This document shows positions 34,247 to 56,879 of a DNA stretch of 64,000 nt, piece after piece. Within the stretch, counting starts at the first letter, position 1. Every line of letters begins with the position of its first letter. Under the pieces are notes generated by a model that saw nothing but the letters and a program-made list of their open reading frames with translations, had not been told where the DNA came from and ran no database searches. Origin of the DNA: Dendrophyllia cribrosa (taxonomy: Eukaryota > Cnidaria > Anthozoa > Scleractinia > Dendrophylliidae); the NCBI GenBank assembly GCA_024195265.1, contig JAJLRJ010000010.1:15271033-15335032 (forward strand). The letters run 5' to 3'. The position numbers were made by a program, and so were the translations under genes.

Positions 34247-34561
34247 GAGCCACGTTAGTCAATGAAATTTCTAATCATTTTTTTTTTAACATTTTACATA
34301 TGCATGCATGATATGAAGAAACTAAAAGAAGCGCACAGGAACAGCAAGGTAAGTGGTTTTTTTTATTATTTTCTGTAACGATAAGACCAAGTGAAAACGT
34401 CAAATTCCAATTTCGGTGGCCCCAGCCCTAAGTACAACATTTCCTTAAAACACAAAATTAGGACAGTTTTAAGGTATCTAGGTTTTTAAAAAGAAGATAA
34501 TAATGAGAAAATGAGAAAAATGATAATGATATAAATAAAAATAATCATGATGAAAACCGAC

Positions 34562-34870: not shown

Positions 34871-35447
34871 CTTGGTAAAACACTAAAATATCAAATTAAG
34901 AATAAATCGAGCCGAGATATAACATCAGATTAGCTGTGAACAGTCTCCTTAGTGGTAATATAGGGTTAAAACGAACTGGGCGGCAGTTGGAGGGAGGGGA
35001 AGGGCCCCCCTCCCACCCCATCCCAAGGTTTCCTTTAAAACCCTTTATGGCATCAGATAAATTCAGTTGAAAAAGCGTGCACTTGGTGCGTCCATACAAT
35101 TAGATCACTATTTTACCTAAACATCAAATTCAATTACCATTTTGTTCGACCACAGTTCGTTAAATCTGGGTTATTTTGCCAATTGAAAATTGTTGGGAGC
35201 ATACATCAAATGAATCATCACCATCTGCATACCCGGGAGGAAGCAACAGCGATATGATGTCAGTAGCATCCATTTTTGAGACAAAGACGTATGTTCTGAC
35301 CATATTAAAATACGTTTCAGATTTTACTGTGAAATATGTAGCCAAAAAAAGTAAACACATTGGCGAAAACCCTCTTTAGTTACGATCAATACCCATTCTT
35401 TGTTACATTAAAGTTTAAAAACCTATGCAGATATTGTGATGTCTCAC

Positions 35448-35741
35448 CTTTAAACTTTGTCCGGAATGTCTTTTTGATTGCATTCCCCTCAAACACACAA
35501 TTCTTGGCGAACACCATTACGGTGTATTGTGTGCTCGTGTTGAGGTTTCTAACAAGCAAACTTCTTGTAGCAGGGTTGGAAACATTATCATTCTTTATTT
35601 CATCATCACACTGTAGTATTAACACTCGGTATGCTGTTATAGGACTCCTTCCACTGTCGACGGGCGGTTCCCATTTCACTGTCAGTGATGTGGCCTGAAT
35701 ATCCGCATCTGTTGTTGTGATGATTGGAGAACCTGGTGCCT
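35448..35741 (-). CDS. RTK exon 6: first FN3 domain
   Basis: Encodes APGSPIITTTDADIQATSLT, VKWEPPVDSGRSPITAYRVL and STQYTVMVFAKNCVFEGNAI. A typical FN3 with PPVDSG turn. Acceptor atttag, donor AAAG/gtgaga, phase 1-1. Confidence 0.9.
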
Positions 35742-36230: not shown

Positions 36231-36494
36231 TTATTTGCTGTATTAAAACATTCCTTGAAACAGGAAGAAAACCATTGCCAGCTGTGCAGTTATAGTTTCC
36301 AAAATCTTCATCAGAATTCATAGTCACGACAGCTGTGTTATCATTAGCTTTAATTGGATTAAACTTGGTTCCATTAGGTTTGTACCAGGACAGGGTTGGA
36401 GTAGGAACACCATCTGACTCGCAAGTTAGCGTTATTGTCTGACCAATCCACGACATGGTCACGGAGGAAGATATGTTTTGTATGGTAGCTTGGT
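36231..36494 (-). CDS. RTK exon 5: third-type Ig domain (C2/I-set)
   Basis: Encodes (D)QATIQNISSSVTMSWIGQTI, TLTCESDGVPTPTLSWYKPN and DFGNYNCTAGNGF. Both Ig cysteines (TLTC, YNC) and the core Trp are present. Acceptor caacag, donor ATAA/gtaagt. The acceptor is only 22 nt from a TTAA foldback element, so the branch point probably lies in transposon DNA. Confidence 0.9.
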
Positions 36495-36923: not shown

Positions 36924-37252
36924 TTAAGTTTTGGAGATATGTTTATGAAACGTGCTCAAATTAAGTCGTGTTGTTATCTTGAATTTCATCGAGGACAGCT
37001 CTGCCTTGATGCGTTATAAATAGTACGTGTTTTGCTTTTAAACATAAACTAATGATTTGAATAAATTTTTTCGAAAGAAGATTGTGTTGTCCATTTTGAT
37101 GTGTTTGTTCATTCATTACAGAGATTGAAAACCGATTTTATGTAAACAAAACAAGACTTAGATTTTATACTCGCGTCGCCTTATGCAAATATGCCTTTTG
37201 TTTATTTTTGCAATTTTGATTTCCAAATCAGTTTCGCGGGCATTTTTTGACA

Positions 37253-38231
37253 AGCAACAACTGTAGTTTCGGAAAATAGTCGTAATAGTTATTCTAGACG
37301 GAGAAAAAGTTGTTTTTGTAAACCTTTGTACGGTCTAAATGTACTGTGCAGACGGTCGGGTAATACTGTTTTTGAGAATTGCTAAAATTGAAAAATAGCC
37401 CGGTCGTCAATATTAATCTTAATTCTTGTGCTTCCGACCTTTCACCTATTAGTTAAGTTTCATCTTAGTTAAGCTTGTTCAGAGGGCGCCGCTGTTAGGC
37501 TAAGCCTAACTATATATATTATGGACTAAACTGATACGACATGATTTGAAGAAAGTACTCACAGTTAACTACAAGATTCAGTTGTTTTTCTGTACTTCCT
37601 GCAGAGCTGTTGGCCCTACATGTGTACATTCCTGCATCTGCTTTGCTGATTTTGTTAAAAGTAAGATGGGTTGTTTTAGAGCCATAACTCTTCACTTCTT
37701 CGTTATGACTCCACATCACATCTGGGTCTGGCTTTCCCATTGCATTACAGCTGATATTAACAGGACTGCCCTCATTATAACTTGTATTTGCTACCGTTGG
37801 ATTAGTAATACTAGGTGGATCTGGAAATAAAAGGACAGGTATGTAGTTTTAAAAAGAATTATAGTTGGTTCTAGAATATTGGATAAGACGTTTTTAATTT
37901 TGATGTACCGTACGTCGTAATTCTTAAATGTTTTCAACCCTTGTAGAGCTTCAAAAAGGCACTCCTACATAAGAATACAGACAGAAATTCTCGACTCCTA
38001 AGGCAACACGTGGATTAAAGGCGCATTAAAAGATGGTCCGCAAATACCTTGAAATCTTTATGTTATACTTTTAAAAAGCTACTTTTAAAAAGCGATTACA
38101 TGGTTTTCTTCTTTCGCGTTTAATCTCAAGCACAAACCTTCGAGACTGACTTTAGTAAATTGTATCTCCTGCGCCCGCTAGTCCTAAATTATTTCAATTA
38201 ACAACAAAATCACGAGGGGACCTCATTTCTA
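37253..38231. repeat. ~980-bp direct repeat, left copy (duplicated target with Ig exon)
   Basis: From AGCAACAACTGTAGTTTCGG to CGAGGGGACCTCATTTCTA. It recurs at 55895-56879 with only a handful of differences that I could see (about 99 percent identity by eye). The two copies bracket the LINE exactly, the arrangement of a target-site duplication, though about 50-100 times longer than normal. Confidence 0.9.
37563..37820 (-). CDS. RTK exon 4: Ig domain, downstream copy of the duplicate
   Basis: 86 codons, phase 1-1: (D)PPSITNPTVANTSYNEGSPV, NISCNAMGKPDPDVMWSHNE and AGMYTCRANSSAGSTEKQLN. An I-set Ig with both cysteines and core Trp. The same exon exists at 56205-56462, identical in predicted protein as far as read. 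The two can be used together or singly without frame change. Confidence 0.9.
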
Positions 38232-38235
38232 TATA

Positions 38236-38246
38236 TTTTTTTTTTT
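38236..38246 (-). repeat. LINE poly-A tail
   Basis: Eleven T on the plus strand followed by TGGTATTTTATTGC, i.e. an A-tail on the minus strand, directly against the left copy of the duplicated target. Confidence 0.75.
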
Positions 38247-38384
38247 GGTATTTTATTGCTTCTTACGCTTTTACAACAAAAAGTACATTTTGAAACACAG
38301 GATACAAACTAAGTAGTTACAAAACACATACAATAAAAAGAAAATGATAAATAAATAAATAAGAAAAGATAGATTTAATTATTT

Positions 38385-38713
38385 CTATCGTAAAGGTAAG
38401 AATCTCTCCCACTTTTTGTAATGGCTTAAAAGCTTATCGTTTGCTCTTGCAATCTGTTCTTCAATTTAAAAATCTATTTGAGTTTGGCAATCAGCAATGA
38501 AATATTAGGAATAAAGGCGTTACACCTACATTGGTAAATAAGTTGTTTCCCTAATAAAATGACATGATTTGTTAACATAATTTTTTTGTTATTGTTCCAA
38601 TATCCAAACATAATATCTGTTTCACTAAAGTGTTCAGTAGAAGGTTCAAGAATTGTATTGAGCCAATTATTTACTGATAGCCAAAAGTCTCTAACATGAG
38701 AACAGCGGTACAG
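38385..38713 (-). pseudogene. LINE ORF2, final C-terminal segment
   Basis: The minus strand continues the zinc knuckle broken off at 46186: (HL)LYRCSHVRDFWLSVNNWLN, then HVILLGKQLIYQCRCN. It completes the CxxC...HxxxxC knuckle that begins with CNFCKENDESLEHL at about 46215. Two in-frame stops follow before the end. Confidence 0.8.
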
Positions 38714-38719
38714 TAAATG
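38714..38719. repeat. 6-bp target duplication TAAATG, left of element A
   Basis: TAAATG recurs at 46180-46185. Removing element A and one copy joins EHL to LYRC in the LINE knuckle in frame. Confidence 0.8.
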
Positions 38720-38874
38720 TATGGCGCGCCGTTTGTTTCAAAATTAATTTTACCTATTGATTGCAATGTGTGTGGTTTAATCATAATCACTTCACAAAAG
38801 AGTCCTCTTAATTCCATAAACTGTCCTTTAATTTCCTCTCATCTTGCAACTTGGTTGGTAAAAGGGTGTTTTGT

Positions 38875-39823
38875 TCGTATTATTCAATCAGTTGTGCGTG
38901 CTCAGTTCTTTCAGTTGTGTGTGTTATTCGATCAGTTGTGTGTTACGTATTCTATTAGTTGTGTGTTATTCAATCAGCTGTGCGTGTTATTCGATCAGTT
39001 GTGTTATATAATCAGTTGTCAGTTTGTTGTTCGATATGTTGTGTGTTATTCGATCAGTTGTGCGTATTATTCAATCAGTTGTGCGTGTTTTGCGATCAGT
39101 TGTGCGTATTATTCAATCAGATGTGCGTATTATTCAATCAGTTGTCAGTTTGTTATTCGATCAGTTGTGCGTATTATTCGATCAGTTGTATGTGTTCGAT
39201 CGGTTGTGTGTTTTGCATGTTCAATCAGTTGTCAGTTTATTATTCGATCAGTTGTGCGTGTTATTCTATCAGTTGTGCGTATTATTCGATCAGTTGTGCG
39301 TATTATTCTATCAGTTGTGTGTATTATTCGATCAGTTGTGTGTATTATTCGATCGATTGTGAGTATTATTCAATCAGTTGTGCGTGTTATTCTATCAGTT
39401 GTGTGTATTATTCGATCAGTTGTGTGTATTATTCAATCAGTTGTGCGTATTATTCAATCAGTTGTGCGTATTATTCAATCAGTTGTGTGTGTTATTCTAT
39501 CAGTTGTGTGTATTATTCTATCAGTTGTGTGTATTATTCTATCAGTTGTGCGTATTATTCGATCAGTTGTGTGTATTATTCGATCAGTTGTGTGTATTAT
39601 TCGATCAGTTGTCGGTATTATTCTATCAGTTGTGTGTGTTATTCGATCAGTTGTGTGTATTATTCTATCAGTTGTGTGTATTATTCTATCAGTTGTGTGT
39701 ATTATTCTATCAGTTGTGCGTATTATTCAATCAGATGTGCGTATTATTCAATCAGTTGTCAGTTTGTTATTCGATCAGTTGTGCGTATTATTCGATCAGT
39801 TGTATGTGTTCGATCGGTTGTGT
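38875..39823 (+). repeat. 21-bp minisatellite array 1 of element A
   Basis: About 45 tandem copies of GTGCGTATTATTCGATCAGTT with variants (TATTATTCTATCAGTTGTG, TTCAATCAGTTGTCAGTTTG). As the unit is 7 codons long, all three frames stay open and give false ORFs with heptad repeats (CVLFDQL, YYSISCA, VVRIIRS). Larger blocks of units recur in arrays 2 and 3. Confidence 0.95.
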
Positions 39824-39845
39824 CCCTTACCAAATCAAATGTGTC

Positions 39846-40170
39846 ATAAGTATACTTTTTGTATACCATGAGTATACACCAACTCTTCTCTTGAACCAGC
39901 TGTTTAGTTTTGAGTATACTTTTTGTATACTTGTTGCAAATGGAACCTTTGAGCATTGTAACTGTTGTATACTATTTGTATACCATGTAAATTCCAACTA
40001 TACAAAAAGTATACACCAAAAGCTATCCATTAGCCGTACGACATTTGTTGTATACAAAAGGTATACACCCAAAACTACATGTGTTCCTTATGGTATTTGT
40101 TGTATACAAACAGTATACACCCAAAACTACATGTGTTCCTTAAGGCATTTGTTGTATACAAAAAGTATAT
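39846..40170. repeat. Cluster of palindromes TATACAAAAAGTATAC, left
   Basis: At least seven copies of paired half-sites GTATAC or TATAC separated by 5 A/T-rich bases, each followed by ACC or ACACC on one side. Such regularly spaced inverted half-sites look like binding sites for a dimeric protein. A mirror cluster is at 43725-44005. Confidence 0.75.
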
Positions 40171-40823
40171 ACAAAATGCGAGTTTCTGCACCTATAAAAT
40201 ATGTCTAGACAAATAATATTGACAAGTTTCTTACTCTTCTGATTCAGGGATTCACTGAGTTTCCATAATTATCAGGATAGCAGTTTCTTTATCTAATAGC
40301 CTCTAATTTCAGAAATGCAGTTAACCTTTTGTCAAGTTCAACTGACATAATCAGAAGAATGAATTAACATGCAGTCAACAATCCTGTATTATTTTGATTC
40401 ATTCTGATCCTGTTACTAGTCAGTGTACTTCAACTCCACAGTAAAAATCCATTTAATCCAAACCTTTACAAGAGGAATATCTCTTCAATTTACCTTTGGA
40501 CTTGTTTAAGCAATTCCTGGTTCCTTTTTTAACGCGATGTGAAAGATTTGAAAGAGAATGCATGGCTATCCGCCATGTTGCTTTTGAAACGTGACTTGGT
40601 CGAGTAAACCTGGGGAGAGTGAGCCAGCAGTCAGCAGTTTTAGCCTATAGAGCATGCACTGTACGGGTACAGTAGCTCTCAGTGAGTTCGTTTTTTTTTC
40701 AAATGCTGGAAGGAAAGTGAACCTCAACCGCAAAAATATGGACAATCTTCTTTCTAAAGCTAGGTAAGTAAAAGAATGAATCTTTGCTGAAGCTATAAAC
40801 ACAGTCATGCAGCTTACATAACA
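40171..40823. other. Unique AT-rich part of element A
   Basis: Only short frames are present (for example 40566-40826 minus, 86 codons) and none is recognisable. Contains CGCCATGTTGCTTTTGAAAC, a possible start region on the minus strand. Confidence 0.4.
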
Positions 40824-40831
40824 CAATTAAG
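40824..40831. repeat. 8-bp target duplication CAATTAAG of Merlin, left
   Basis: Matches 42889-42896 exactly. Eight or nine bp is the known Merlin duplication length. Confidence 0.8.
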
Positions 40832-41284
40832 GGCAAGATTTCCGTATAACCCCATACATTAATTATGCATACGCGCTATTATAAAAGAGAACAATAAAGA
40901 AAACAATAGACTGCCTTTGGGAATAGCATAAATTATACAAGTTTTTTTCATTTTTTTTTCTAAGTCTTTTTCAAATTAGGTCTAAAATGAGCGTTTTCAT
41001 CAAAATTTGTCCAGAAAAATACGCCGTTTTCCGTGTTTTTCGAATTGTAGTGCGAGGGAAAAATTAAAAACGTAGCGTTGGGCGCGAAAGGTTAGCTTTT
41101 AAATGAGGGTTAGGGAAACTGCGTCGATCAGAGAAAAATAAATTGAAACTCACCGTTGATGTTGTTGTGGTGTTTTTTCCCCGTTTTCCAGCTTGCGATG
41201 CGATGCGTTGAATCTTAACTTGGTGTATTATTATTTTCACGAAAGAAGATCACGAATGGTGCATAGATTGGTACGCGGAACACT

Positions 41285-42292
41285 TTACGGGTCTTTGTGC
41301 ACCTCGTAAAGTTCAGCGATATGCTTGATGATGTTTCCAAAGGGATCCTCTCCATAATGCTTACGCCACAAAAACTCCTGTAGGTAGCTTTCGAAGAGAT
41401 CTTTGGATGTTCCTGTACGGGGCAGACCTCGCTTTACTCCCCACCATGTATTTTCGATGCCCTGCGTGTGAGCACCGGTGTCTGGGTCTACGAAGTTTAG
41501 GCTGTAGTTAACTGTGAGATGTTCATAGCCCTCGTCTTGTAGGCAATCATAAGCTCTCCACTTGTCACTCATCACGCGGGTTCCTGGCAATATGTGAGCG
41601 CGTATAATTGGCAAAAGAGTATCTTTATCCCTGCGCTCTACCGGAACAAGGAAGCAGGCCTTCGTTTGGCGGCAAAGGCCGCCGAAGACCCACTGTCCTT
41701 CGATGTAGCGGCCTCTGTGGTACTTCATTTTGCCAAACTTGGACTCGTCAATCTCAACAGTTGTACCTGGTCCGCCTATTTGCCCCGCATGATGTTGCAT
41801 GATTCTGTAGGCACAAACCTCCCGGCAATAGTTATACCAATCTATCACCGTTTCTGTAGACGTGGTCTCATCGTCTAGCGAGGTCTCATGCACTGCTTGT
41901 TTAATGGTATATTTGTGCGCCCAAGCGTAAGTTAGGGCTAATATTTTTTGAATGGGAAGCTTGCTACCAAAAAACCATGAGTTCTGGCGCAGTGTAGCCA
42001 TGCCATTACAATGTCTCTTCGAGCATCGCCACTCAAACCCGTCTCGCGATTTCGCGCGTTTCGTCCAGCTGAGTGCTTTGCAGCACTCAGGCCTTGGACA
42101 CCTCACGGCCGACGCGAGTAGGTTCTGTTCCTTGCACCAATCTATGCACCAATCTATGCACCGTTCGTGATCTTGTAGTAGACAACACAACGAAAACCAA
42201 TTGAACTTGACGAAAGGACGAGAGGACGCACACGATGGGACAGACGAAGACGTAGACGGAGACGAAGACGAAGACGGAGGTACTTTTGACAT
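41285..42292 (-). CDS. Merlin transposase (DDE, IS1016/ISXO2-like), intact ORF
   Basis: 335 residues. A Ser/Pro-rich start (residues 5-25) precedes a zinc-ribbon-like Cys cluster (C65, C70/C71, C90, C95). The DDE core follows: IDESKFGKMKYHRGRYIEGQ with D182, VMSDKWRAYD with D243, and HTQGIENTWWGVKRG with E280. The spacing of 36 residues between D243 and E280 is the DD36E of Merlin. Conserved QWVFGG and NFVDPDTGAHTQ segments are present. No stop or frameshift. It would bind the TIRs and catalyse cut-and-paste transposition in the nucleus. Start at 42292 chosen as the first ATG after an in-frame stop. Confidence 0.92.
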   Translation of the reverse strand: MSKVPPSSSSSPSTSSSVPSCASSRPFVKFNWFSLCCLLQDHERCIDWCIDWCKEQNLLASAVRCPRPECCKALSWTKRAKSRDGFEWRCSKRHCNGMATLRQNSWFFGSKLPIQKILALTYAWAHKYTIKQAVHETSLDDETTSTETVIDWYNYCREVCAYRIMQHHAGQIGGPGTTVEIDESKFGKMKYHRGRYIEGQWVFGGLCRQTKACFLVPVERRDKDTLLPIIRAHILPGTRVMSDKWRAYDCLQDEGYEHLTVNYSLNFVDPDTGAHTQGIENTWWGVKRGLPRTGTSKDLFESYLQEFLWRKHYGEDPFGNIIKHIAELYEVHKDP

Positions 42293-42514
42293 AACTAAAT
42301 GATAGTGATAATGCGGTTGAAGGACAACTGAGTGAGAGAAACTTGCATGGAAATAAGTTGCTTTTTATTCTCCCAGTTAACCAATAGCAAAGGCATGACA
42401 AGGATTCCTACGTGTAAACTGTTATGGGAGTTGGGGTTAAATTGTTATGTAGATTTTTAGTAATTAACATAGAACTTATGAATAAAAAGTAATTATTGGT
42501 CGGGAACTTTCAAC

Positions 42515-42600
42515 GAGCTCTTGTGGTGTAATGGTATAGCAGATGGACTAATACTCCAGATGTGATCAAGGGGTCACGGTTCGAAATACGGTGCCGCCGA
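42515..42600 (+). other. Degenerate tRNA-like sequence inside Merlin
   Basis: Contains a box-A-like TGGTGTAATGGTATAGCAG and a box-B-like GGTTCGAAATAC about 45 bp later, with CCA where an anticodon could be. The T stem does not pair, so this is at best a tRNA relic or an internal Pol III promoter-like tract. Confidence 0.3.
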
Positions 42601-42888
42601 AATAAAAAGGAAAAAAGGAAACCGAGAAGAAGACTGGGACGAGAAACTGAGAAGAGAAAAGACTGGGGAAAGAGGAGCGGAGATGAGAAGGAGAAGAAAG
42701 CGGGAGAAAGAAAAAAAACGAGACGACGCAACTAAATCCATTTTTATTGTTGAAGTAAGTAGCGATTAGTGATGCATATATTCAATACACGCGGGAATTG
42801 CCATTGTTTAAGAAAACAATAGCGCGCATACATAATTAATGAAGTATGCATGCATAATAAATGTATGGGGTTATACGGAAATTTTTCC

Positions 42889-43720
42889 CAATTAAGCTTT
42901 GGCTTAGACTGCTTAGATCTCTTGACTGTTTGAAAGGGTTTGAAATGAACATCGATGCATTTCAAAATTAGTCTTAAGCTTTAGTCGCTTGACACACAGT
43001 CCTTCCCAATTTTATATTTAACACAAATAACAGTTTCACCAAAATAGACCAAACTACATGTAACTGCAACATTTAAATCTTAACAATTTGAAAGATCTCC
43101 ACAAGCTTACATATTTCTACTCAAGGTATATATCCTATGTACATGTACCTTAGCTACATTGAGATTTGTCTCCTGTTTTCATAATACATGAACATGTATG
43201 ATCTTAATTTAGAAACTTTATACATGTATGTGCTGGATTAAAGGGGAGAGAATACAAATTAAACCAAATGTTTTGTTTTGTTATAGCTAAACCACATGGA
43301 TGGCAATGAATGCTTTCAAACAGCTTGCATGCATGGGCACTCAGAAGTTATCAAACCTCCACTCAAATGTCCAGTTCAGCTAAGTGTGGATTGAACAAAC
43401 AATTTAGTAAAAGCTATGATTATTTTTGCAAGTATCTATTGAATAATAGGACTACTTTTGACAGTTTGTTTTCTTCATGACAATTTTAGAGTGTATAAAT
43501 TCAAAGCAAATTTTCTGTTGATGTGACCAAAATTTTATATATAATGTATAATAGAAAATACTAATAAATGTATGGTGAAAGTAGCTCAATGTGTAGCATT
43601 TTCTGTATTGATGTTGTGATATATTGTGGGATTCCAAATGGGATAGCATGCTTTGATAATTCCATGGATCCCACAACCACCGATTGAATATGGCTGCTTA
43701 TGCAAACAAGGTCACTACCA
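42889..43720. other. Unique AT-rich part of element A, right of Merlin
   Basis: 42889-42896 is the right Merlin target duplication. The remainder has no recognisable frame. Confidence 0.5.
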
Positions 43721-43724
43721 AAAA

Positions 43725-44005
43725 TATACAAAAAGTATACTTCTTTTGTACTAAATGTATATTTTCTCATTTGTATACAAAAAGTATACAATTTTATTGT
43801 AGCAAAAGATTTCAGGTATTGTATACTTTTTGTATACTTTATGTTGTATACTTATTGTATACTTGGGCGAAATTGTGCCTACTTCGAGTATAATTTTACT
43901 ATACAAAAAGTATACTCCATGAAAATGTTGAGAAGGACAAAAACTATACAAAAACTATACTCAAGGAGTATACTTTTTGTAGAAAATAGGGTATACAAAA
44001 AGTAT
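43725..44005. repeat. Cluster of palindromes TATACAAAAAGTATAC, right
   Basis: Eight or more copies, some perfect (TATACAAAAAGTATAC at about 43727 and 43776). Same motif and spacing as 39846-40170, on the opposite side of the central region. Confidence 0.75.
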
Positions 44006-44025
44006 ACTCATTTTCTGTAAGGGGT

Positions 44026-44544
44026 GTTTTGCATGTTCAATCAGTTGTCAGTTTATTATTCGATCAGTTGTGCGTGTTATTCTATCAGTTGTGCGTATTA
44101 TTCGATCAGTTGTGCGTATTATTCTATCAGTTGTGTGTATTATTCGGTCAGTTGTGTGTATTATTCGATCGATTGTGAGTATTATTCAATCAGTTGTGCG
44201 TGTTATTCTATCAGTTGTGTGTATTATTCGATCAGTTGTGTGTATTATTCAATCAGTTGTGCGTATTATTCAATCAGTTGTTCGTGTACATGTTTTGCGA
44301 TCAGTTGTGTGTTTTATTCAATCAGTTGTCAGTTTGCTGTTCTATCAATTGTGCGTATTATTCAATCAGTTGTCAGTTCATTATTCGATCAGTTGTGTGT
44401 ATTATTCGATCAGTTGTCAGTTTATTATTCGATCAGTTGTGCGTGTTTTGCGATCAGTTGTGTGTTTTATTCAATCAGTTGTCAGTTTGCTATTCTATCA
44501 GTTGTGTGTATTATTCGATCAGTTGTGTGTTTTATTCAATCAGT
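44026..44544 (+). repeat. 21-bp minisatellite array 2 of element A
   Basis: Same unit and orientation as array 1. It begins with the same block as array 1 at 39212 (TTTTGCATGTTCAATCAGTT), showing duplication of higher-order blocks. Confidence 0.95.
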
Positions 44545-44801
44545 CGCCTGGCCACAGACGGCAATGTTGGACGGCTAGATGAACTAGAGCTTTCGGCCGG
44601 CGATGAGCGGTTGAAGGACAGCGAAATATCGTTGGCCATTCTTGAGTCCGGCTGAAGGGACCTCAGTGCGTTTCGTGTACTGTCAAATGCACTGGCAGTG
44701 GTTCCAGTGGCTCCAGTGGATGGCTGCAGACGATTCATAAGATCCGAAAAGGTTCTCGAGAAATCTCCCAGCAAAGAGTTGATATCCTGATTCGAATTCA
44801 T
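44532..44801 (-). CDS. Short Ser/Arg-rich ORF between the minisatellites, unknown
   Basis: 89 codons from ATG at 44801 (MNSNQDINSLLGDFSRTFSD ...). It contains a predicted amphipathic start, then Ser/Thr/Arg-rich sequence (SSSSSSRPTLPSVARRL) and stops in the first minisatellite unit. Base composition is GC-richer than the rest of element A. It may be the first exon of a captured or lost element gene. No domain is recognised. Confidence 0.3.
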   Translation of the reverse strand: MNSNQDINSLLGDFSRTFSDLMNRLQPSTGATGTTASAFDSTRNALRSLQPDSRMANDISLSFNRSSPAESSSSSSRPTLPSVARRLIE

Positions 44802-44970
44802 CCTCCTTGGTGAAAGAAACGATTCGGCGCTCGTCACCTAGTGTCTGCGATGGGAAATTCCGTAATTGCTATGATAATGCCGAACCGACCAATTACAAGC
44901 TACTATCGATTTACTGCAATTGGTCGCCAAGAATAGCAACAGCGTAATCCCGGCCAAAAGCGATCTGCCG

Positions 44971-45920
44971 CACAACTGATCGAATAACACGCACAACTGA
45001 TCGAAAAAGACACAACTGATTAAAAACACATCCAACTGATCGAATATTAAACACGCACAACTGATCGAATAACACACAACACAACTGATCGAATAACACA
45101 CAACACAACTGATCGAATAACACACAACACAACTGATCGAATAACAAAGTGACAACTAATTGAATAAAACGCACAACTGATCGAAAAACACGCACAACTG
45201 ATCGAACAACAAACTGATAACTGATTCAATAATAAGTACAACCGACAAAAAAAACACGCACAACTGATCGAATAATAAACTGACAACTGATCGAATAATA
45301 CACACAACCGATCGAATAATACGCACAACTGATAGAATAACACGCACAACTGATTGAATAACACACACAACTGATTGAATAACACGCACAACTGATAGAA
45401 TAACACGCACAACTGATAGAATAACACGCACAACTGATCGAATAATAAACTGACAACTGATTGAACATGCAAAACACACAACCGATCGAACACATACAAC
45501 TGATCGAATAATACGCACAACTGATCGAATAACAAACTGACAACTGATTGAATGATACGCACATCTGATTGAATAATACGCACAACTGATCGCAAAACAC
45601 GCACAACTGATTGAATAATACGCACAACTGATCGAAAAACACGCACAACTAATCGAATCTGACAAACTGACAAGTGATTTAATATAACACGCATCTGATC
45701 AAAAAAATACTCATAACTGCTCGAAAAACACACACAACTGATGGAACAACAAACTGACAACTGATTGAGTAACGGTCAACTGATCGAATAACACGCACTT
45801 TTAACTGATTGACTGACACATGTACAACTGACTGGGGTGACGACCAATTGATCGAATAACACGCACTTTTAACTGATAGATTGATGCACGTAGAACTGAT
45901 TGAGTAAAATGACCAATTGA
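44971..45920 (-). repeat. 21-bp minisatellite array 3 of element A, inverted
   Basis: The minus strand carries the same 21-bp units and the same block TTTTGCATGTTCAATCAGTT (at about 45460-45480). With array 1 it extends the inverted symmetry of element A to about 1.1 kb on each side. Units near 45850 are more degenerate. Confidence 0.93.
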
Positions 45921-46185
45921 AAAACCCACATTCATGGCTAGTGATGCTGTAATGTTCTCATGTGCAGCTGATCTTGTGACACATGTAGTGATACCCACCC
46001 ATATTCGAACTGGAAATTTGCAGTCTGTAAACACCCTTTTACCAACCAAGTTGCAAGATGAGAGGAAATTAAAGGACAGTTTATGGAATTAAGGGGACTC
46101 TTTTGTGAAGTGATTATGATTAAACCACACACATTGCAATAATAGGTAAAATTAATTTTGAAACAAACGGCGCGCCATATAAATG

Positions 46186-47591
46186 CTCGAGGGATTCGTC
46201 GTTCTCCTTACAAAAATTGCACAGCGGGGATTCTACCAGCTTCATTTTGAATAGTATTTTATTAGTATAAAGTATTCGATTAAGGATTTTATTCTGAAAC
46301 TCTCTAGTTTTACAATCAATTGTTGTCTTGTAAGGGCGTGTGCATATTTCGTTCCATCTAAAATCAAAGTTTTGGTATAGTTCTTGAAATTTAATTTGCG
46401 CTGTTGGTTTGAGAGCGATAGTGTCAACTTTATCCCAATGAGTTTTCTTTGATACCGATTTTTTTGAAGTGCCTGGGTTTAAGGGAGATTCATTTGGTGG
46501 TGTATTTAAAACGTTTTCCATATTACGACAACGCAACATACGTTTCCAGTGTGCTGGTAAGGCGTTATACATTCTTCCTAAAATAAAATAATCTGAGGCA
46601 CTCAGTGCAGGATAGCGGTTTTTTAAATGGTTCCATTTGCATAAACTTCCACTGTTTTGAATTATGTCAACAATTTTTATAATTCCAATTTTAACTAGCT
46701 TGTCATTATAAACCGATTTGCCACCAATACAAATGTGCTGATTGTTCCAAAGTATTTCTGAGAGAAGTTCGGATCTAGAGGTAGGTGAGGATTGCATGCT
46801 CTGACTTCTCCAGGCTCTGATACATTCATCAAAGAAAACAGGAAGTTTAATGGGTAATTTGTTAACATTAAAGTTACATTGAAATATAAAAGAGGCTCCG
46901 ACCTTGCTAAGATGGTAATTTAGGATCGTCTTCCAAACATTCACATTTTCTTCGTCTAGAAATCTATCAATGTAACGTATTCTTTGGGTTTCAATTAAGG
47001 ATTCAAGGTGGGGAGCCTTGAGACCTCCATTCTCATAACTGTTAATAAGTGCTTATCTTTTAATTTTATCTTTACCATTCCAAATAAAATTGTAAATAAG
47101 GCTATTAATTTCTTTGATGGTTTCTTTATCGATGTGACTAAGAGAAGCTCTGTAAGACTACATTATTTTTGGAATTGCAAACGTTTTTATAATTTGGATT
47201 CGACGGTATAGAGTAAGTTTTCTCCATTTCCACGCAGCAAGGATTTTTTTGGTATCTTTAATTATCTTATCGAAGTTATATTCCTTCCTCTTTTTAATGT
47301 TGTATGTGAAATAAATACCTAGAATTTTAACTGGTTTCTGACTTAAATTTAGGTCGGAAAGAGAGTCTATGGAGTTCTTTTTACTGCCGAGCCACAGAAA
47401 TTCTGTTTTTATTTTATTCAGCTTTAGTCCTGAACATGCATGTAGAAAAAAACTATTCAAGATACTCTGTAAATTTATATACGATAATTTGTCTTTCAGA
47501 AAACAAGTTAAGTCGTCAGCAAAGGCACAAAGTTTAAATTCTTCATTATTGATTTTTATGCCAGAAATGCTCGAATCATCACGAATGCGGA
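46186..47591 (-). pseudogene. LINE ORF2: RT palm end, thumb and C-terminal domain
   Basis: Continues the RT after transposon B: IRIRDDSSISGIKI, then the catalytic box CAFADDLTCF at about 47515. The C-terminal region (ENGGLKAPHLESLIETQRIR, WKRMLRCRN) leads to the first half of a zinc knuckle, CNFCKENDESLEHL. In-frame stops at about 47158 (IPKIM*) and about 47066 (KIKR*) interrupt it. Element A cuts the knuckle at 46186. Confidence 0.85.
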
Positions 47592-47595
47592 TTAA
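47592..47595. repeat. TTAA target duplication, left of transposon B
   Basis: TTAA here and at 52272-52275. Removing B and one TTAA restores the LINE frame as EILLIRIRDD. Confidence 0.85.
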
Positions 47596-47879
47596 AGTGT
47601 ATATGACATGAAATTTTTTTTTGTTGTTTTTGGTCCTTTGATATGTATAAAAAAATGTTCTGAAATTGAAATGCGTAAAAAAAAATAAATTTCCCATAGT
47701 TTTGGGCGTCGAAAAACTCCAATTTTCCCAGTAAAAATGTCCCGGAGTCTGGGGACGAGTGTAGGACGAGAGCCAGGCTCGTGACGTCACATGACGTCAC
47801 TTGATTTGCTTGCTGTGTTACTTCTGGTATAATTCTGCTGTTTTCTCGTCTACAAATGTCCACTGATCTCATCGGCAAA

Positions 47880-48070
47880 ATGTCCAGTGATTCATAACTC
47901 AGCGATTTATCTGATTCTACAGACAGTATAGATACAAGCGAAGGTTCGGAAGAAGAATGGGAAGTCGTAAAAAGCGAAATAACTCCATAACAAGACGAAC
48001 CACTCGTTGAAGTTGTAGACCACGAACTAGCCGGTGATGGAGACTCCGAGGAAGGAAGACTGATGGCGTA
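47880..48070 (+). pseudogene. Acidic frame near the left end of transposon B
   Basis: Plus-strand frame SDLSDSTDSIDTSEGSEEEW followed by EVVKSEITP, a stop, and QDEPLVEVVDHELAGDGDSE. Such acidic stretches precede P2X7-tail-like domains in invertebrate proteins that I recall, so it may be the start of the same old gene as 48630-48800. One in-frame stop. Confidence 0.25.
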
Positions 48071-48627
48071 ACATCTACCTTTTTAGAAGAGAGATACGAA
48101 GAACTCTAAGCGTGGATGTTTGGTTAGTAAAGTTATTCAAACTGATGTCCATTCAGTTAAGTTACAGCGCGAAATGATGTCTATGCGAACGATGCAATGC
48201 GGATGGAACTTATCGCCGCCATGGTGGAGGGGATCAGAAATTATTTAAACGAGTATGTAAAGTCCGAATTTGTTGCCTTTATAAGTGTATGTCTAAAGCC
48301 CTGAATGAAGTCGATTGATGTAGAAAAAATCAATCCGATGATATGAACAACTTTAATTTTGACGGCTGCTGAAGTCAAAGCTGAAGTACACGTACCGGTA
48401 CGTCGTAGCTTGTTTGATGAGGGGAATTGTTTACAGTTTGTAGATTCATAATTTGTTTACTATTGACTTGCTCGAAGCCGCTCATTTTTTCACTGCAACG
48501 ATGGGGTTGCTAAGGAGCTCTAGGATACTTCGGTACGCGAGAACAGGGAGCGAGTGCGGAATTGGAGTAAATGCGAGTTGGACAGCCTGCACACTTGTAC
48601 ACTATATACAATATAACCTGTCTACAA

Positions 48628-48800
48628 ATTGTCGGTTTCAGATTTATACGAGCTGTTGCATACAGATGGACCACACAATGGCTTTGTGGCTACACGGGGT
48701 GGGACAACACCAGGCCACTTCCTGCCTGTGTTTATCACAGCATAAGGACAAAATACCAGTCAACTGGATATGCCACTTTGCAGGACAGAGAACATTGAAA
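48628..48800 (+). pseudogene. Fragment resembling the P2X7 C-terminal (zinc-binding) domain
   Basis: After a plausible acceptor (ggtttcag) the frame reads FIRAVAYRWTTQWLCGYTG, then RPLPACVYHSIRTKYQSTGY. This is similar in pattern to AYRQFxxWxxGxLGxxxRxxxPxCxxxxIR of the P2X7R C-terminal domain, which occurs in many cnidarian proteins. Short and degenerate, so the match is by pattern only. Confidence 0.35.
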
Positions 48801-48899
48801 ATACCTGTAGGTCTAACTGTGGTGTTAGACATTGCACTCATACAGGGCCCAATTCAATGGCTCTTTTAGGAGCCACCAAATAAATAAAAGTCATGACCA

Positions 48900-49500
48900 A
48901 CAAAATAATTATAAGTGTGAATTACGAGTGTGAATGTAACCAATTTTCATCTTAGTCAAGCCTATTTGTTCAAAATAGTCTCCATTATACCAAGGGAAAC
49001 CTCAACTTGATTGAATTAAGCTAATGAGGTGAATTTGGTTGCTATGAGGCAAATTTGTGAGGGGGTAGGGGGTGGCAAAACCACTAACATTCAACTGATC
49101 TTAATCAGAGAGCCCTTTTACTTATTTAATTTTTCTATTTTTTGTATTTACAGTATTTTAGTAGCAATGACTTGTAAGGCATTACAATTCCAATTTTGTT
49201 ACCAATCCAAATTTAGGAAAGATTTGGGACCAAGCTTAAAAATATTTATTATCTTTCTTCATTTATCAGATACCAATAGCCATTTCCGAGTTACCTTTAG
49301 CCTTTTTTTTTCAAAGCGCGGCCAAGTACAAGACAATCAGAATTCATATTCATATAAGTTTTATGAGAATGTGAAAGAAAACTGATATTCATAATCTTTG
49401 CACTTGGCCACACTCTGATGAAGATGTTAACCATATCAAAATACAAATTCTCCTCTCTTGTCCCCAAACATTTATTGCTGCAGTAATGAGGAGATGATAT
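48900..49500. other. Transposon B interior, nothing recognised
   Basis: A 118-codon frame (49029-49385) lacks any recognisable pattern and is Phe/Ile/Asn-rich. Confidence 0.4.
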
Positions 49501-49504
49501 TCTA

Positions 49505-49662
49505 ATAGACCAATTTTGATATATTAAAATTCAACTTCAAACAAAAGACATCACTACGAGGCTTAAGGGAATAAACCATATAAATCCCTACTATCGTTCC
49601 CTAAGCCTCGCAGTGATGTCTTTTGTTTCAAGTTGAATTTTAATATATCAAAATTGGTCTAT
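49505..49662. mobile_element. 158-bp perfect-looking foldback element inside transposon B
   Basis: Arms of about 65 bp beginning ATAGACCAATTTTGATATAT, nearly perfectly complementary, with a loop of about 30 bp. The high arm identity indicates recent origin or gene conversion. Confidence 0.8.
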
Positions 49663-51500
49663 TCCCATGACCTCTCTGATTGATTAAGTATTGATATTAC
49701 AAGGAGAAATTGATGCTTATCACCAATACAATGATGCCTCTTCAGTACCCTAGAAAAGGCACACCAAGGAGTCCTCACTCCTGAATTTCAAAGTATAAGT
49801 GGTGGTAAAGGTAGCACTTACATATCTGGGCATTGACCCATATTCTTTATCTGTCCTAAAGACCTATCCAGTCTGGGTTGCCCTAGAGTGAATTTACTAA
49901 GACCATGAAACAGTATCTAGCAATTAATCAAAATTAGCCAAAATTATTATTAAAAACATAAACAAAAGAAAACAATGGAATTAGTGTCTAATAGTGCCTA
50001 CTGGCTAAGAAACTATTTCACAGTTTTAAGAAAATCACTATTTCAGGCCATGTGATGTCACTCAAGACAACTGATTTTCTAAATTTCATCATGCATTTAC
50101 ATGTATGTGATTGAACAACTTTTAGATCATCAACATAAACAATCAGTCCCAGAAAAGGTAATGTAAAGGTAATTCTCAATATCAATTAAAAGAAAAAAGG
50201 CAGAACTAAGTTTATTTTAAAGTCTGGCACTGAGTCCTAACTCAGGGGCTAAGTCTGAACAGTGGTCTACAGTCATCAAAACTTCGGCCATGTTACTTCT
50301 TTATGACCACGCATTGGTTGTTTTGCATACTGAGCAAATGGGAGGTCTTCTTGAAGAGGTTTTACTTCTGGTCTGAGTATTGTTACTGCTACATGTGGGT
50401 TGAAGGAAGACTGTTCTGCTTCTGTAAAATAAAAAAGTGAATCATTACATACACAACAAGCTCTTTCCTAAAATTAATAATGTGACATGTGAACTCAGGA
50501 CAGTACATGTAACAGCTTACATGTTAGATGCCCCAGCCCACTCACAGCGACCTTGTAAGTTAACAGAAGTGCATTCTACGGTTTGGCTACATGTAGTTGG
50601 ATAACACATGCTCTTGTGGTTATCATGATAGATGGGGATGGATGCAAGTGAGAAAGTGTCTTCAATATAATTTCCAGTATAATGAAAAATAGTCTAACCC
50701 TACATGTATTTATGCACAGATTCTTTATTCAAGTATCTGGACATAATCCCCACTCATTTGGTCATTGTTATGTTGACTTAACACAGCTAGAAGGGCATGC
50801 CACTTTGCAAACAACCTCTTCTCTTAATTTAAATTTTGGATATGTAACTCGCATATATTGCTTTCCATCCTTTGATACCTGTGTATCTCCTTGTAGGTTT
50901 TCATTAAGTGCAAACTTGCCAAAATATGCCAAGAAAATTAATAATGATTATGGGCAAAAATCCCAAAAATGAATATACACTGTAGACCTGCTAACTTAAC
51001 TTTGAAAGCATTTCAACACACCAAGCATAAAAAAGCACAATTATTTAGAGCCAATATTACATATATTCATCATAGCAATGTTGTCTCATTCAGTCAAAGT
51101 CTCTAACACTGATTCACCACGGTGACTGCAATTTGCTGAGAATGATGATGTTTGGGAAAAATAATAAATTTTTCTAAAGTAATAGTTATAAACAGTACAG
51201 TAATGACCAATCAATATGGGCTCCTTGCTCCACCTGTAATTTTGTAATCAATTTAATTCTATTCCAGGAAATATTGTTTCTTCAGCATTGTAATTAATAA
51301 AGGCATCAACCTCTGAGCCTAAAAATAAATCTCTACTTTGTACTTTTATAGCTTCCCATTTAGTTTGCAGCCTATGGGTAAGATTTTACTCTTGTGTTAT
51401 CTCACCCTGGGAGTTCTGAACAATAACGTGTGATGATAAGCTGAGAAAGCTCCGCTGAACTTAGCTGAATACTGCACATCGAAATTCATACAAAATTATG
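49663..51500. other. Transposon B interior, nothing recognised
   Basis: AT-rich DNA without a supported gene. The 96-codon frame at 50682-50972 is unrecognised. At about 51503-51553 a degenerate internal copy of the right TIR end (ACAAATCGTGTCATATTCAC) suggests a past rearrangement of the element end. Confidence 0.4.
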
Positions 51501-51699
51501 TATCGAAGAACCAAAAATACCAAAAAACAAATCGTGTCATATTCACTTTAAAATCATTAGTTATAGACATAAATGTATATACAATCCAAATACAGTTTGA
51601 CTTCACACATTCTCGCATGAAATTCTCACGTAAAGCTACGTATGAATAAGCTTAAGATTATTGTAAACAAATGAAAATCGCTTACTTGCTGTCGCTTTC

Positions 51700-52042
51700 T
51701 CCGTTCACTCAAAACTTTGTGAACCTTCGGGCAGGACGGTGTCTCTTGTAGGAATGGAGCCCGTGATTAGGTTTCGTTTCCTTTTATAGCCCAATGAAAA
51801 TGCCAGGAGGTTTTCAAAACAACTACAGTGTAGGCTCAAAACCTGTTGATCGACTAGCCGAAATCGATGCGGTGCAGCCGGACGAATTTTAGCCATTTCG
51901 CCCTCACTGAAGGCCCTTGTTGGAAAGAGATGCATCTAAATACCTGGTGTATAGCTAGCATTTTTACAGCTTTCAATGTTTGGCGCTCCGGTCGCACAAT
52001 ATCTCCCGCCTTTCTTCTTATCGCCCTTCTCTCTTGCTGCCA
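51700..52042 (-). pseudogene. THAP-type zinc finger remnant, transposon B
   Basis: Minus strand from ATG at about 52042: MAAREKGDKKKGGRYCATGA then PNIESCKNASYTPG, a stop, MHLFPT, a frame shift, and SVRAKWLKFVRLHRIDFG. This is the start of a C2CH THAP domain (first two Cys, then FP and WxxFV blocks). Stop and frameshift make it inactive. THAP domains bind DNA in several transposases. Confidence 0.6.
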
Positions 52043-52275
52043 TTTTGTGCTACGAGTCAAATCATTCTACGTCACATGACGTCACACAAGCAAGTCACAT
52101 GACATTTTGGCCGCGCGCTCGGGAGGACACTTTTGAAGTCAACATACGCGTGTTTTGAGGGCGAAAAAAAAGGTTTTTTAAATCCTTTTGACACATTTTA
52201 ATTTCAGAACATTTTTTTTTACATATCAAAGAACCGAAAACAGCAAAAAACAAATTCGTGTCATATACACTTTAA

Positions 52276-54295
52276 CAGAATTTCAAGTGCAATAATAAAT
52301 AAATAAGCGGATAGTGGGTCGCCCTGTCTGACACCTCTTTTGATGGAAAAGTAATTTGACGCGTAGCCGTTATTCATTATGCAGCTACATGCATTGTTAT
52401 AAAGTGTTTCTATCCAATTAATAAACGAGGGTCCAAAGTTGAAACTTTCTAAGGCTTTAAACAGGAAATTCCAATTTAAAGAGTCGAAAGCCTTTTCGAA
52501 GTCTAGAGCAACTAACAGATCAGGAATTTTCTCACTCTCTGTAAACTCCAAGATCTCATTTATGTTTCTTACAGCATCTGATATAGACCGACCTTTAACA
52601 AAAGCATGTTGGTTACTGTGAATAATATCTGGTAGAACTTTTTGTAATCGTTTAGTTAAGACCTTTGATGCAATTTTTGCATCTACATTTAAAAGCGAAA
52701 TCGGACGCCAGTTTGGAATGTAACGTTTATCTTTGTCTTTTTTCTCGATTAAGGTAATAGTTGCTCGCTTTTGGGAGGTGTATAGTTCGCCGTGAATATA
52801 AGAATAATTTAAAGTTTCAACATGTTGTTTTCCGATCACTGGCCAGAAGGTTTTGTAAAATTCTGCAGTTAGACCATCACTCCCCGGAGATTTAATATTA
52901 TAGAATTCTTTAACTGCAGTATAGCATTCATTGAAGGTCAACTAACCCTCGCATAAGATACTTGACTCTTCTGATAGTACAGATATAGGTGTTTTCAATA
53001 TGAAGTCTTGTGTTGTATCTTGGTCTGTCATGTTATTACAGTCACTGTACAAATCGGAATAGAAAGACTCCAGCTCGGTTAAAATCATTTTGGGATCGGT
53101 TATTTCGCTATTCGTCTCAACTATCAGTTTTCTTACGCAAGATTTATTCTTTTTTCGAGTCTCTAAATTAAGAAAGTATTTATTGTTTTTCTCCCCTTTT
53201 TCGTACCAATTTGCTCGGGATCTTATAATTGCACCTTTAGTTTTATGATCAATTAGCTCTTCGTATTCAGTTTTTAGAATCAACAACTCTGATAAGGTTG
53301 CTTCTGACGGATTGCTGTCACAGCGCATTTCGGCTTCTTTAAGTTTGTTTTCGACAGAATTGATTTTTTGTCGTCGTTCCTTTGCTATTTGCTTCGAGTA
53401 CCTGATCGTCGTTTGACGTATTCGGTATTTAACTAAATCCCATAAAACTCTTTTGTCCTCTACCTCTGAAAATTCTTTTAGCCAAATCGGATAATTATCA
53501 TTGATGAGTTTTACATAAATTGGGTCTTCGGTCAAGCTTGAGTTAAATTTCCAATAAGATGGGCCATGAGGTAAATGTTCAATTGTGTCAATTTTAAGCA
53601 ATATGGCGGAGTGATCACTTTTAATTGCAGGTATAATGTCAGTAGTTTTAATATCTTCTTGTAATGAGTCACTTACTAACCAGAAATCAAGGCGCCGTTG
53701 GATCATTGGTGTTTTTTGTCTCCAAGTATAGCGTCTAGCGTTTGTATTTCTTACTCTCCAGATATCAATGAGGTCATGTTGCAGCATTAAATCATTAACA
53801 TTTTGCACGGACTTTTTTAACATAGGAGTACCGCCTTTACAATCCAAATCGGTATTAAAACAAACGTTGAAGTCCCCACCTATTATAATGTTTTGGTTGT
53901 TTTCATCAGTAATAAATTCGTCTAATATATTTTTTATGTTATCGAAGAATGTGATTTGATCAGCTACTTTTGTAGGAGCATAAATGTTCAGGAGAATAAA
54001 AGGTTGATCTTGTATTGTACAGTCTATTATAATGAAACGGCCATCAGGGTCTTGTTTTACCGAGATTTGCTCAAATTCAAGTTGTTCTTTTACTAGTAAT
54101 AGTACACCTTTGCTGTGAACTGTACCATGAGAAAAATACATGTGCCCTCTCCACTGTGTTTTCCAGATATTTTCTAGTTCTGGTGTGCTATGTTTCTTGA
54201 AGTAGTATAATATCTGCGTCTTGTTTAGAAGCCCAGGTAAAAATATATTTTCTTTTGAAGGAGTCACGAATCCCTCTTACATTTACTGATATCAT
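52276..54295 (-). pseudogene. LINE ORF2: AP endonuclease and first half of RT
   Basis: ATG at 54295 (MISVNVRGIRD...). A one-base shift near 54187 breaks the frame after LLQET. The endonuclease follows with LLNIYAPT, IIGGDFNVCFNTD and IKSDHSAILL. A single in-frame TAG at 52944-52942 precedes the RT (SPGSDGLTAEFY, LIEKKDKD, NWRPISLLN, ALDFEKAFDSLNW with the first catalytic Asp, GVRQGDPLSAYLF). Transposon B enters at EILL. The endonuclease nicks target DNA and the RT primes on it. Confidence 0.9.
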
Positions 54296-54895
54296 ATTAA
54301 AACAAATACCTTTAATGTGCATTATATTTAAAGCGGATATTCGGAAAGCCGGATCCTAATTGAGAATTACTTTGCGAGAAACTTACGGAGATGATTAAAA
54401 CGTAGTTAAGATATGAATAACATACACAAATCACAGAATCGCAGTACCTAATTACATGTAACGCGCAAAAGAAATACATTACACTAATTAAGAAACAAAA
54501 AAACATAAGTTCTTCGAATATTATGTAAGACTGGACAAAAGCTGTACAAACACGTTACACAAACCACATAAGAAGACGGGGGCAAAAACAAATTAATAGC
54601 CTTACCTTATGCTCCAGAGTTAACTGTAATCGAGCTTTAACCCAAAAACCTTTAGCCGGATCTTCAAGCTTCAGCTCCCTTACCGTACGTTGTTTTATAT
54701 ACAGGTAATTAAAATAGAAACGCCTATGAAGTACTCATTAATGTGAGGTGTTAGCAGGCTGCTAAAATTAAGTTCAAAACGTCTATCAATTGTTAATTAA
54801 ATGTCTTCAGGTGTTGGACAAAATATTTCTTTGTGAAAAAACGAAATATTGGATTGAGTATGTTAATTAAAACATTACATTCCACCGATTATTAT
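54296..54895. other. LINE inter-ORF region
   Basis: About 600 bp between ORF1 stop (54898-54896) and ORF2 start (54295) on the minus strand. No conserved frame is seen. This is long for an L1-type spacer. Confidence 0.5.
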
Positions 54896-55815
54896 TTACA
54901 TTTTAACGTATTTTCCATCAATATAAAGTTTATCTGGTTCCGATTTACTGAAATTTGCGCGTTTTCCATCTTTTCTTGCTTTCTTAAGTTTGTCTATTTG
55001 GACTTTTCTCATTTCGTGCAACTCTTTTGGCATATCTTCGTACATCTTGTAGTTGGTGTCTTTTAGTTTGCGGCCGCATTTAAGAACTCGTTCTCTGTCT
55101 CTGCTATGATCGTACGACCGCTGTTACCATTAGTGTTCTTTGGTTAACCCATCCTATGTACTCGCTGGAATTCAATATCTTCGGCGTTTTCAATTTCCAG
55201 GACATTTTCCATGAAGTCAACCAGAATTTTTTCCGTGTCCTCGGTCGGTGATGCACTCTGGTTGGACGAATCGGTTGTTTCAGGTATTCCTTCAAATTTT
55301 AAATTCTCACGGCGACTGTACGCTTCAAGGTAAAGGATTTGTTTGCGGTAATCGTTAATTTCCTCCATTCTAGTATTCATACCGTTCTGTAACTCTTTAA
55401 TTTGGTCGTCCACGAATATTGTGTTGCTTTCAACATGGTTGAACTTCTCGTCAAGACTCTTCTGCTTGTCTTTCACCGAAACGATATCGATTTCGAGAGA
55501 GGATACCTTACTTTGTAGGCCTTCTACAGATCTATTTAGTTGCTCCATTTTTTAGTCGAGGCTGCCAAGTCTTGCTAAGATGAGGTCTAGTTTCTCGGCA
55601 AAACTTTCAGTAAGTTTTTGAGCTGCCATTGCTTTATCGTCTTCTTTGTCTTCGTCTTCGTCTTCGTCTTCGTCTTCTAAGCTCTTTGCGCCAGGAGAGT
55701 TCGAAGGTTTCCACCTTTTTTCCTCAGGTGACGTTTCTGTTGAACTATTAGATGTATTTCTGCAACTTGCTTTCCTCTTTGGAGTTATATGAATACAAGA
55801 AATTTCCATAGACAC
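54896..55815 (-). pseudogene. LINE ORF1 (L1 ORF1p-like, coiled coil)
   Basis: From ATG at 55815: basic start, a Ser/Thr-rich part, an acidic EDEDEDEDEDK run, then a stop TAA at 55554-55552. The same frame resumes with a coiled coil (MEQLNRSVEGLQSKVSSLEI) and QILYLEAYSRRENLKFEGIP, the RRM-like core of L1/Tx1 ORF1 proteins. After a frame break near 55144 the end reads KLKDTNYKMYEDMPKELHEM, then a basic tail to the stop at 54896. RNA-binding chaperone of the LINE, inactive here. Confidence 0.8.
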
Positions 55816-55894
55816 ATCAAAATTAGGTTTAAAGATTGTACGGTTGACGGAGCGTTAGAAACACGTCTACATCACACTGCGCTCTCCCCAGTCC

Positions 55895-56879
55895 AGCAAC
55901 AACTGTAGTTTCGGAAAATAGTCGTAATAGTTATTCTAGACGGAGAAAAAGTTGTTTTTGTGAACCTTTGTACGGTCTAAATGTACTGTGCAGACGGTCG
56001 GGTAATACTGTTTTTGAGAATTGCTAAACTTGAAAAATAGCCCGGTCGTCAATATTAATCTTAATTCTTGTGCTTCCGACCTTTCACCTATTAGTTAAGT
56101 TTCATCTTAGTTAAGCTTGTTCAGAGGGCGCCGCTGTTAGGCTAAGCCTAACTATATATATTATGGACTAAACTGATACGACATGATTTGAAGAAAGTAC
56201 TCACAGTTAACTACAAGATTCAGTTGTTTTTCTGTACTTCCTGCAGAGCTGTTGGCCCTACATGTGTACATTCCTGCATCTGCTTTGCTGATTTTGTTAA
56301 AAGTAAGATGGGTTGTTTTAGAGCCATAACTCTTCACTTCTTCGTTATGACTCCACATCACATCTGGGTCTGGCTTTCCCATTGCATTACAGCTGATATT
56401 AACAGGACTGCCCTCATTATAACTTGTATTTGCTACCGTTGGATTAGTAATACTAGGTGGATCTGGAAATAAAAGGACAGGTATGTAGTTTTAAAAAGAA
56501 TTATAGTTGGTTCTAGAATATTGGATAAGACGTTTTTAATTTTGATGTACCGTACGTCGTAATTCTTAAATGTTTTCAACCCTTGTAGAGTTTCAAAAAG
56601 GCACTCCTACAGTATAAGAATACAGACAGAAATTCTCGACTCCTAAGGCAACACGTGGATTAAAGGCGCATTAAAAGATGGTCCGCAAATATCTTGAAAT
56701 CTTTATATAGTTATACTTTTAAAAAGCTACTTTTAAAAAGCGATTACATGGTTTTCTTCTTTCGCGTTTAATCTCAAGCACAAACCTTCGAGACTGACTT
56801 TAGTAAATTGTATCTCCTGCGCCCGCTAGTCCTAAATTATTTCAATTAACAACAAAATCACGAGGGGACCTCATTTCTA
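55895..56879. repeat. ~980-bp direct repeat, right copy (duplicated target with Ig exon)
   Basis: Near-identical to 37253-38231. It includes the complete Ig exon, both splice sites and several hundred bp of intron on each side. Confidence 0.9.
56205..56462 (-). CDS. RTK exon 3: Ig domain, upstream copy of the duplicate
   Basis: Same exon as 37563-37820 with identical splice sites and, as far as read, identical protein (NISCNAMGKPDPDVMWSHNE ... MYTCRANSSAGS). Phase 1-1, so including both copies would add a 86-residue Ig domain. It arose with the LINE insertion rather than by ancient exon duplication. Confidence 0.85.

Follow-up and report, generated by a model that had tools for sequence, protein, structure and literature searches.

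Exon duplication is a main source of multi-domain proteins and is commonly ascribed to unequal crossing over. A different route, in which the long target-site duplications of the retrotransposon L1 copy exons, was proposed in 2017 (PMC5223499). In the parts of that report drawn on here, L1 insertions in human cells deficient in nucleotide excision repair (NER) were accompanied by duplications that ranged from 5 bp up to 5.3 kb, with a median of 1495 bp. Duplications longer than 100 bp never rose above 10% of the L1 events in HeLa cells. For the element ZfL2-2 in wild-type chicken DT40 cells, the corresponding portion of the report gives a duplication of 1228 bp in one of 25 insertions (PMC2666801). 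Here we analyse a 64,000-bp stretch of the genome of the coral Dendrophyllia cribrosa (the window, or locus A; C2:15271033-15335032 of an assembly of 627 Mb in 22 contigs), in which a long interspersed nuclear element (LINE) in a receptor tyrosine kinase gene lies between two copies of a host block of about 980 bp, each with one complete immunoglobulin (Ig) exon. This looks like a natural case of the predicted exon duplication by LINE target-site duplication.

As in the NER-deficient cells, the element is a poly(A) LINE flanked exactly by host direct repeats; that system, however, as far as its report was used, consists of an engineered L1 in culture, whereas here the copy is a natural genomic one, the exon is intact and the structure occurs at two loci (PMC5223499). 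The length of the duplication (about 1 kb) is the same as that described for ZfL2-2, which differs in being an L2-type LINE observed in culture, where the portion used mentions no exon (PMC2666801). An element of the non-long-terminal-repeat class specific for ribosomal DNA likewise forms long duplications, but in the accounts drawn on it does so regularly, whereas three of four relatives of the present LINE carry short ones. Repair-mediated duplications are, as here, local and sometimes include whole exons, but the proximal ones are described, in the part of the report considered, as lacking poly(A) tracts, whereas in the window both repeats abut the LINE (PMC2671141). A preliminary description of this DNA had called the mechanism seldom documented. 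This calls for qualification, since kilobase-sized LINE duplications in cell culture and the proposal of exon copying were already in print. In the titles and abstract openings of the open-access literature, no exon was found to have been duplicated in this way in a natural germline. The locus is well explained as a real structure produced by a known mechanism, with an outcome that is unusual but already predicted.

Self-comparison of the window revealed a direct repeat formed by positions 37253-38231 (979 bp) and 55895-56879 (985 bp), with 98.99% identity over 985 columns. In the global alignment of these columns the two copies differ by 4 substitutions and two 3-base indels, none of which falls in the exon. 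The left copy runs on from the left flank and stops at 38231, where it is directly adjoined by the T-run TATATTTTTTTTTTT, i.e. the poly(A) end of the minus-strand LINE, while the right copy starts at 55895, immediately next to the 5' end of the element (...CTCTCCCCAGTCC; on its own strand GGACTGGGGAGAG). The A-rich 3' end is thus placed at one target-site copy and the 5' end at the other. At this locus, as well as at the second one described below, direct repeats longer than 100 bp adjoin the LINE exactly at each of its termini.

The first 270 bp of the block are part of a dispersed repeat, matches to which cover positions 36953-37522 and extend across the left edge of the block (36953 is merely the start of the query). 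At all six other distinct places in the genome that were examined (nine loci were taken, three of them fetched twice), this repeat is unbroken across the point equivalent to 37253, and the same is true of the left copy. The right copy, in contrast, begins mid-way in the repeat. Since the repeat is continuous elsewhere but cut at 55895, the left copy appears to keep the ancestral context on that side and the right copy to begin at a breakpoint. The dispersed repeat is at least 570 bp long, and some of its copies form inverted pairs (C4:24617089 and 24617352).

The duplicated exon (37563-37820 and 56205-56462, both on the minus strand) has 258 nt, and its two copies are identical. It is recognised by the Pfam I-set profile (E 1.3e-15, copy 1) and is in phase 1 at entry and exit, and neither its acceptor nor its donor differs between the copies. 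On the minus strand the order of the gene is as follows: a V-set-like Ig exon (58716-59099, below the Pfam cut-off), the Ig exon, the LINE, the second Ig exon, a downstream Ig exon (Ig2; 36231-36494), three FN3-like exons within 33919-35741 (about 35448-35741, 34610-34882 and 33919-34206, from a crude splice prediction, with matches slightly under the Pfam cut-off) and the tyrosine kinase exons within 24840-28228. The kinase pieces (at 28228, 27362, 26740, 26266, 25920, 25239 and 24940), read and joined by eye, match the kinases of EGFR, RET and FGFR. The preliminary description had proposed near-identical host copies exactly flanking the LINE, with the poly(A) at one and the 5' end at the other, a whole symmetric (phase 1-1) Ig exon with both splice sites inside the block, and a receptor tyrosine kinase as the host gene; the alignment, the intact exon in both copies, and the Ig, FN3-like and kinase domains read from the exons agree with it on each of these points. 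At the junctions, the V exon leaves G and the Ig exon leaves T, and a predicted product V-Ig-Ig-Ig2 would stay in frame, if, as we infer, both exons are spliced.

The joined receptor protein retrieved 70 proteins, the best named of which come from Oculina patagonica, Montipora and Porites, all of them stony corals; judged by its predicted domains, the gene belongs to the coral family of multi-Ig receptor tyrosine kinases, with which it shares the order V-set, Ig, Ig2, FN3, kinase. Ig domains were counted in the first 52 of these homologues, some metagenome proteins among them. Forty-three of the 52 have a single Ig match ahead of Ig2 (19 with V, one Ig and Ig2, and 24 without a V match), compared with two Ig exons in the window; five carry an extra, diverged Ig, two start at Ig2 and one has no Ig2 match. 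Upstream lies another, more distantly related family member, in which one Ig exon was found ahead of the Ig2 exon. As most homologues have one Ig at this position, the ancestral state of the receptor was, most simply, a single Ig. A Montipora capricornis protein (P0042) contains three consecutive Ig domains, 99-100% identical, ahead of Ig2; a near-identical Ig has thus been gained, and recently, at least once elsewhere in the family.

The preliminary description had assigned the whole of 38232-55894 to the LINE. The ends are right, but only about 5.5 of the 17.7 kb belong to it; the remainder consists of two nested transposons, neither of which is found in the paralogous locus, and a single 17.7-kb LINE was therefore rejected. 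All three LINE parts lie on the minus strand: the 3' part with the poly(A) tail (38232-38719, delimited by alignment and comparison with the second locus), a middle part with the end of the reverse transcriptase domain and a C-terminal zinc-binding region (46180-47595), and the 5' part with the 5' end, a coiled-coil ORF1 (ORF, open reading frame) that is interrupted, the endonuclease and most of the reverse transcriptase (52272-55894). Pfam matches identify an apurinic endonuclease (APE)-type endonuclease (Exo_endo_phos_2, 8.1e-9) and a reverse transcriptase (RVT_1, 4.1e-29). The family has a separate ORF1 of 320-322 aa, open in members C16, C2 and C12; it is coiled-coil-like, with weak Pfam matches below the cut-off.

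A search of the 627-Mb genome with the 500 bp that form the 5' terminus of the LINE detected at least ten family members that have this end, with identity of at least 91% (both loci counted); this number is a lower bound. The window element ends at the same 5' terminus as the other members, which indicates that it is full length, and by its sequence we assign it to the APE-type (L1-group) LINEs. Both ends could be located in four of the eight other members. Target-site duplications of 14 bp and 16 bp, each with one mismatch, border the relatives C16 and C1, respectively, and a 10-bp one (AGTTAAGCAG), recognised by eye in the flanks, borders C19; for C2, C12, C17a and C17b the 3' end could not be located within the sequence retrieved. 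Giant duplications as a rule of the family were thus rejected. Whereas 10-16 bp, within the short range of about 7-20 bp, is found in three of four relatives, the duplication in the window measures 979/985 bp, which argues that the event of about 980 bp was exceptional and not a habit of this family.

The whole block was found in at least four places (40 of 1864 candidates were scored): the two in the window, and C2:14306360-14307341 and C2:14312837-14313818. The latter two border a 5495-bp unbroken LINE, with identical junctions but without both nested elements, in a paralogous locus 1 Mb away (locus B; C2:14.306-14.314 Mb). Locus B is collinear with the window from 18.4 kb to 13 kb past the window's end, and each locus carries its own private substitutions and indels. 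At two positions of the block (697 and 798) the left copies of both loci stand against the right ones; no position groups the copies by locus. The duplication therefore took place before the two loci separated in this tract.

Substitutions between the loci are unevenly distributed. Counted after exclusion of three matches that paired the wrong blocks and of every inverted or off-diagonal match, they number 362/9318 in 18.4-33.6 kb, 59/2949 in the left flank (33.9-37.25 kb), 3/979 and 3/982 in the blocks (together 6/1961), 42/5491 in the LINE, 29/4332 in the right flank (56.9-61.2 kb) and 59/3450 in 62.3-65.7 kb. At its left border the unit shows a strong step (Fisher P about 5e-9, with the small approximation that 3 of the 59 substitutions in the left flank were discounted for overlap of the compared regions); the blocks differ slightly from the LINE (P 0.03), and the LINE does not differ from the right flank (P 0.63). 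As blocks, LINE and right flank are jointly low relative to the left flank, the unit was copied or converted as one piece. We infer that the tract was either homogenised by gene conversion or exchanged between older paralogues; the range of divergence between the segmental duplicates, from 0.3% to over 5%, likewise suggests gene conversion between paralogues.

The best explanation of these observations, which we regard as probable, is the insertion of a LINE with a giant target-site duplication that later became common to two receptor paralogues. It is the reading already put forward in the preliminary description, and it is retained for the exact abutment, the exon intact in both copies, the recurrence of the structure at two loci, the cut dispersed repeat at the left edge, the short duplications in relatives and the precedents in chicken and human cells. 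Target-primed reverse transcription would have placed a full-length APE-type LINE in an intron of the receptor tyrosine kinase gene, with first-strand synthesis starting from the block's right edge (38231|56880 in the empty site). The LINE 5' end would then have been joined about 980 bp away, inside the dispersed repeat, in place of the 10-16 bp seen in relatives, and fill-in would have left the block with its symmetric Ig exon on each side of the element. Block, LINE and block would subsequently have reached two paralogous genes 1 Mb apart by segmental duplication, gene conversion or both, and two DNA transposons would have entered the window copy afterwards. This order of events, and the distant second-strand joint, are reconstructed from the present structure. 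It is conceivable, though rather doubtful, that a single germline insertion gave an extra Ig that is expressed in frame, and that the cassette exon-LINE-exon was then passed to the paralogue by gene conversion. If this is true, retrotransposition would act as a one-step exon duplicator spreading within a tandem gene family. A natural copy, an intact symmetric exon, a normally behaving family as control and a paralogous copy together make the prediction testable in living populations.

Several points weigh against an insertion with a giant duplication. The first-nick site (TTCTA|CA) differs from the L1 consensus, which is TTTT/AA. One of the four relatives with both ends located (C21) lacks a duplication as far as its flanks were retrieved. 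A weak point is the right edge (56879|56880), which, unlike the left one, has no independent control sequence. Another weak point concerns age, because the LINEs seem to share more variants than the divergence of the block copies predicts. Over 2400 sites the LINEs of loci A and B share 13 private substitutions, and a further 8 are confined to A and 9 to B; the relative C17b is poorly aligned past its first part (24% private sites) and may disturb a few of these calls. Common to the LINEs of A and B are, in addition, one ORF2 stop and, in none of the seven other members shown, a 16-bp deletion in ORF1 and an insertion of 5 bp. If all the shared variants arose after insertion (up to about 0.9% per lineage), the expected divergence of the block copies is up to about 1.8%, and if they came with the source element, about 0.7%. 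The copies differ by 0.41% within locus A and 0.81% within locus B, so that the comparison of copy divergence with LINE age, recommended in the preliminary description, gave a mixed result: the values fit the lower expectation, or the upper one given conversion between the copies, or a crossover of two LINEs. Variants of the source element, or conversion between the copies, could account for the shortfall from the upper value.

Such an unequal crossover would involve two LINEs that belong to one family and have the same orientation, one at the left edge of the block on one chromosome and one at the right edge on another, and would yield the same local structure with exact junctions and no long target-site duplication. 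It would allow the LINE to predate the duplication, an order to which the shared private mutations point, and the uneven divergence of the receptor cluster points to conversion or recombination. However, two separate insertions, equally oriented and about 1 kb from each other, would be required of a family with at least ten members in 627 Mb, and long duplications, with one in 25 insertions in DT40 and up to 10% of events in HeLa in the portions of the reports drawn on, should be far commoner; we therefore consider the crossover improbable. Still less credit can be given to a repair-mediated or tandem duplication of the block, with the LINE arriving earlier or later by chance, or with double-strand break repair copying onto the LINE 5' end. 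Local repair-mediated duplications are described for the human genome, two of them, in the part of the report considered, of complete exons (Pace and Feschotte 2009; PMC2671141), and near-identical Ig repeats also occur in the Montipora homologue, but an independent event would need to coincide with the two LINE ends at single-base precision. Repair acting on the 5' end while the LINE inserts amounts to a variant of the giant target-site duplication and not a rival to it. An assembly artefact (duplicated haplotype or false join) was a concern of the preliminary description. In its favour, the copies differ by less than 1%, within the allelic range, and the loci could be misplaced haplotypes of each other. 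It is nevertheless the least likely of all and in its simple form was rejected on locus B, since the same junctions recur 1 Mb away with private mutations in each locus and nested elements in only one, and a misplaced haplotype would still leave both haplotypes with the structure.

The nested elements differ from each other. Element 1 (38720-46179, 7.46 kb, minus strand) has inverted ends of the GGCGCGCC type and an ORF at 41285-42292 that matches the ISXO2/IS1595 DDE transposase in Pfam. Long minisatellite arrays occur in its inverted ends and also at 44024-44544. It is bordered on each side by TAAATG, a 6-bp duplication; Merlin elements leave duplications of 8-9 bp. Element 2 (47596-52271, 4.68 kb) has inverted ends and TTAA on both sides, and the ORF list contains no ORF of at least 150 aa within it; missing from the paralogous LINE, it is young.

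On a larger scale, positions 18410-64000 of the window and C2:14288387-14337501 form a segmental duplication of the receptor kinase locus, 1 Mb apart. About 3.7 kb of the window (19776-23454), which contains ORFs, is not present in the paralogous locus. This stretch carries a 135-bp direct repeat (19775-19909 and 22892-23026, 99.3% identity), and the ORF at 22200-22760 looks like a candidate tyrosine recombinase. The region 9821-18410 contains near-identical inverted repeats with reverse transcriptase and GIY-YIG-like ORFs, which we take to resemble those of Penelope-like elements; related copies end the paralogous segment.

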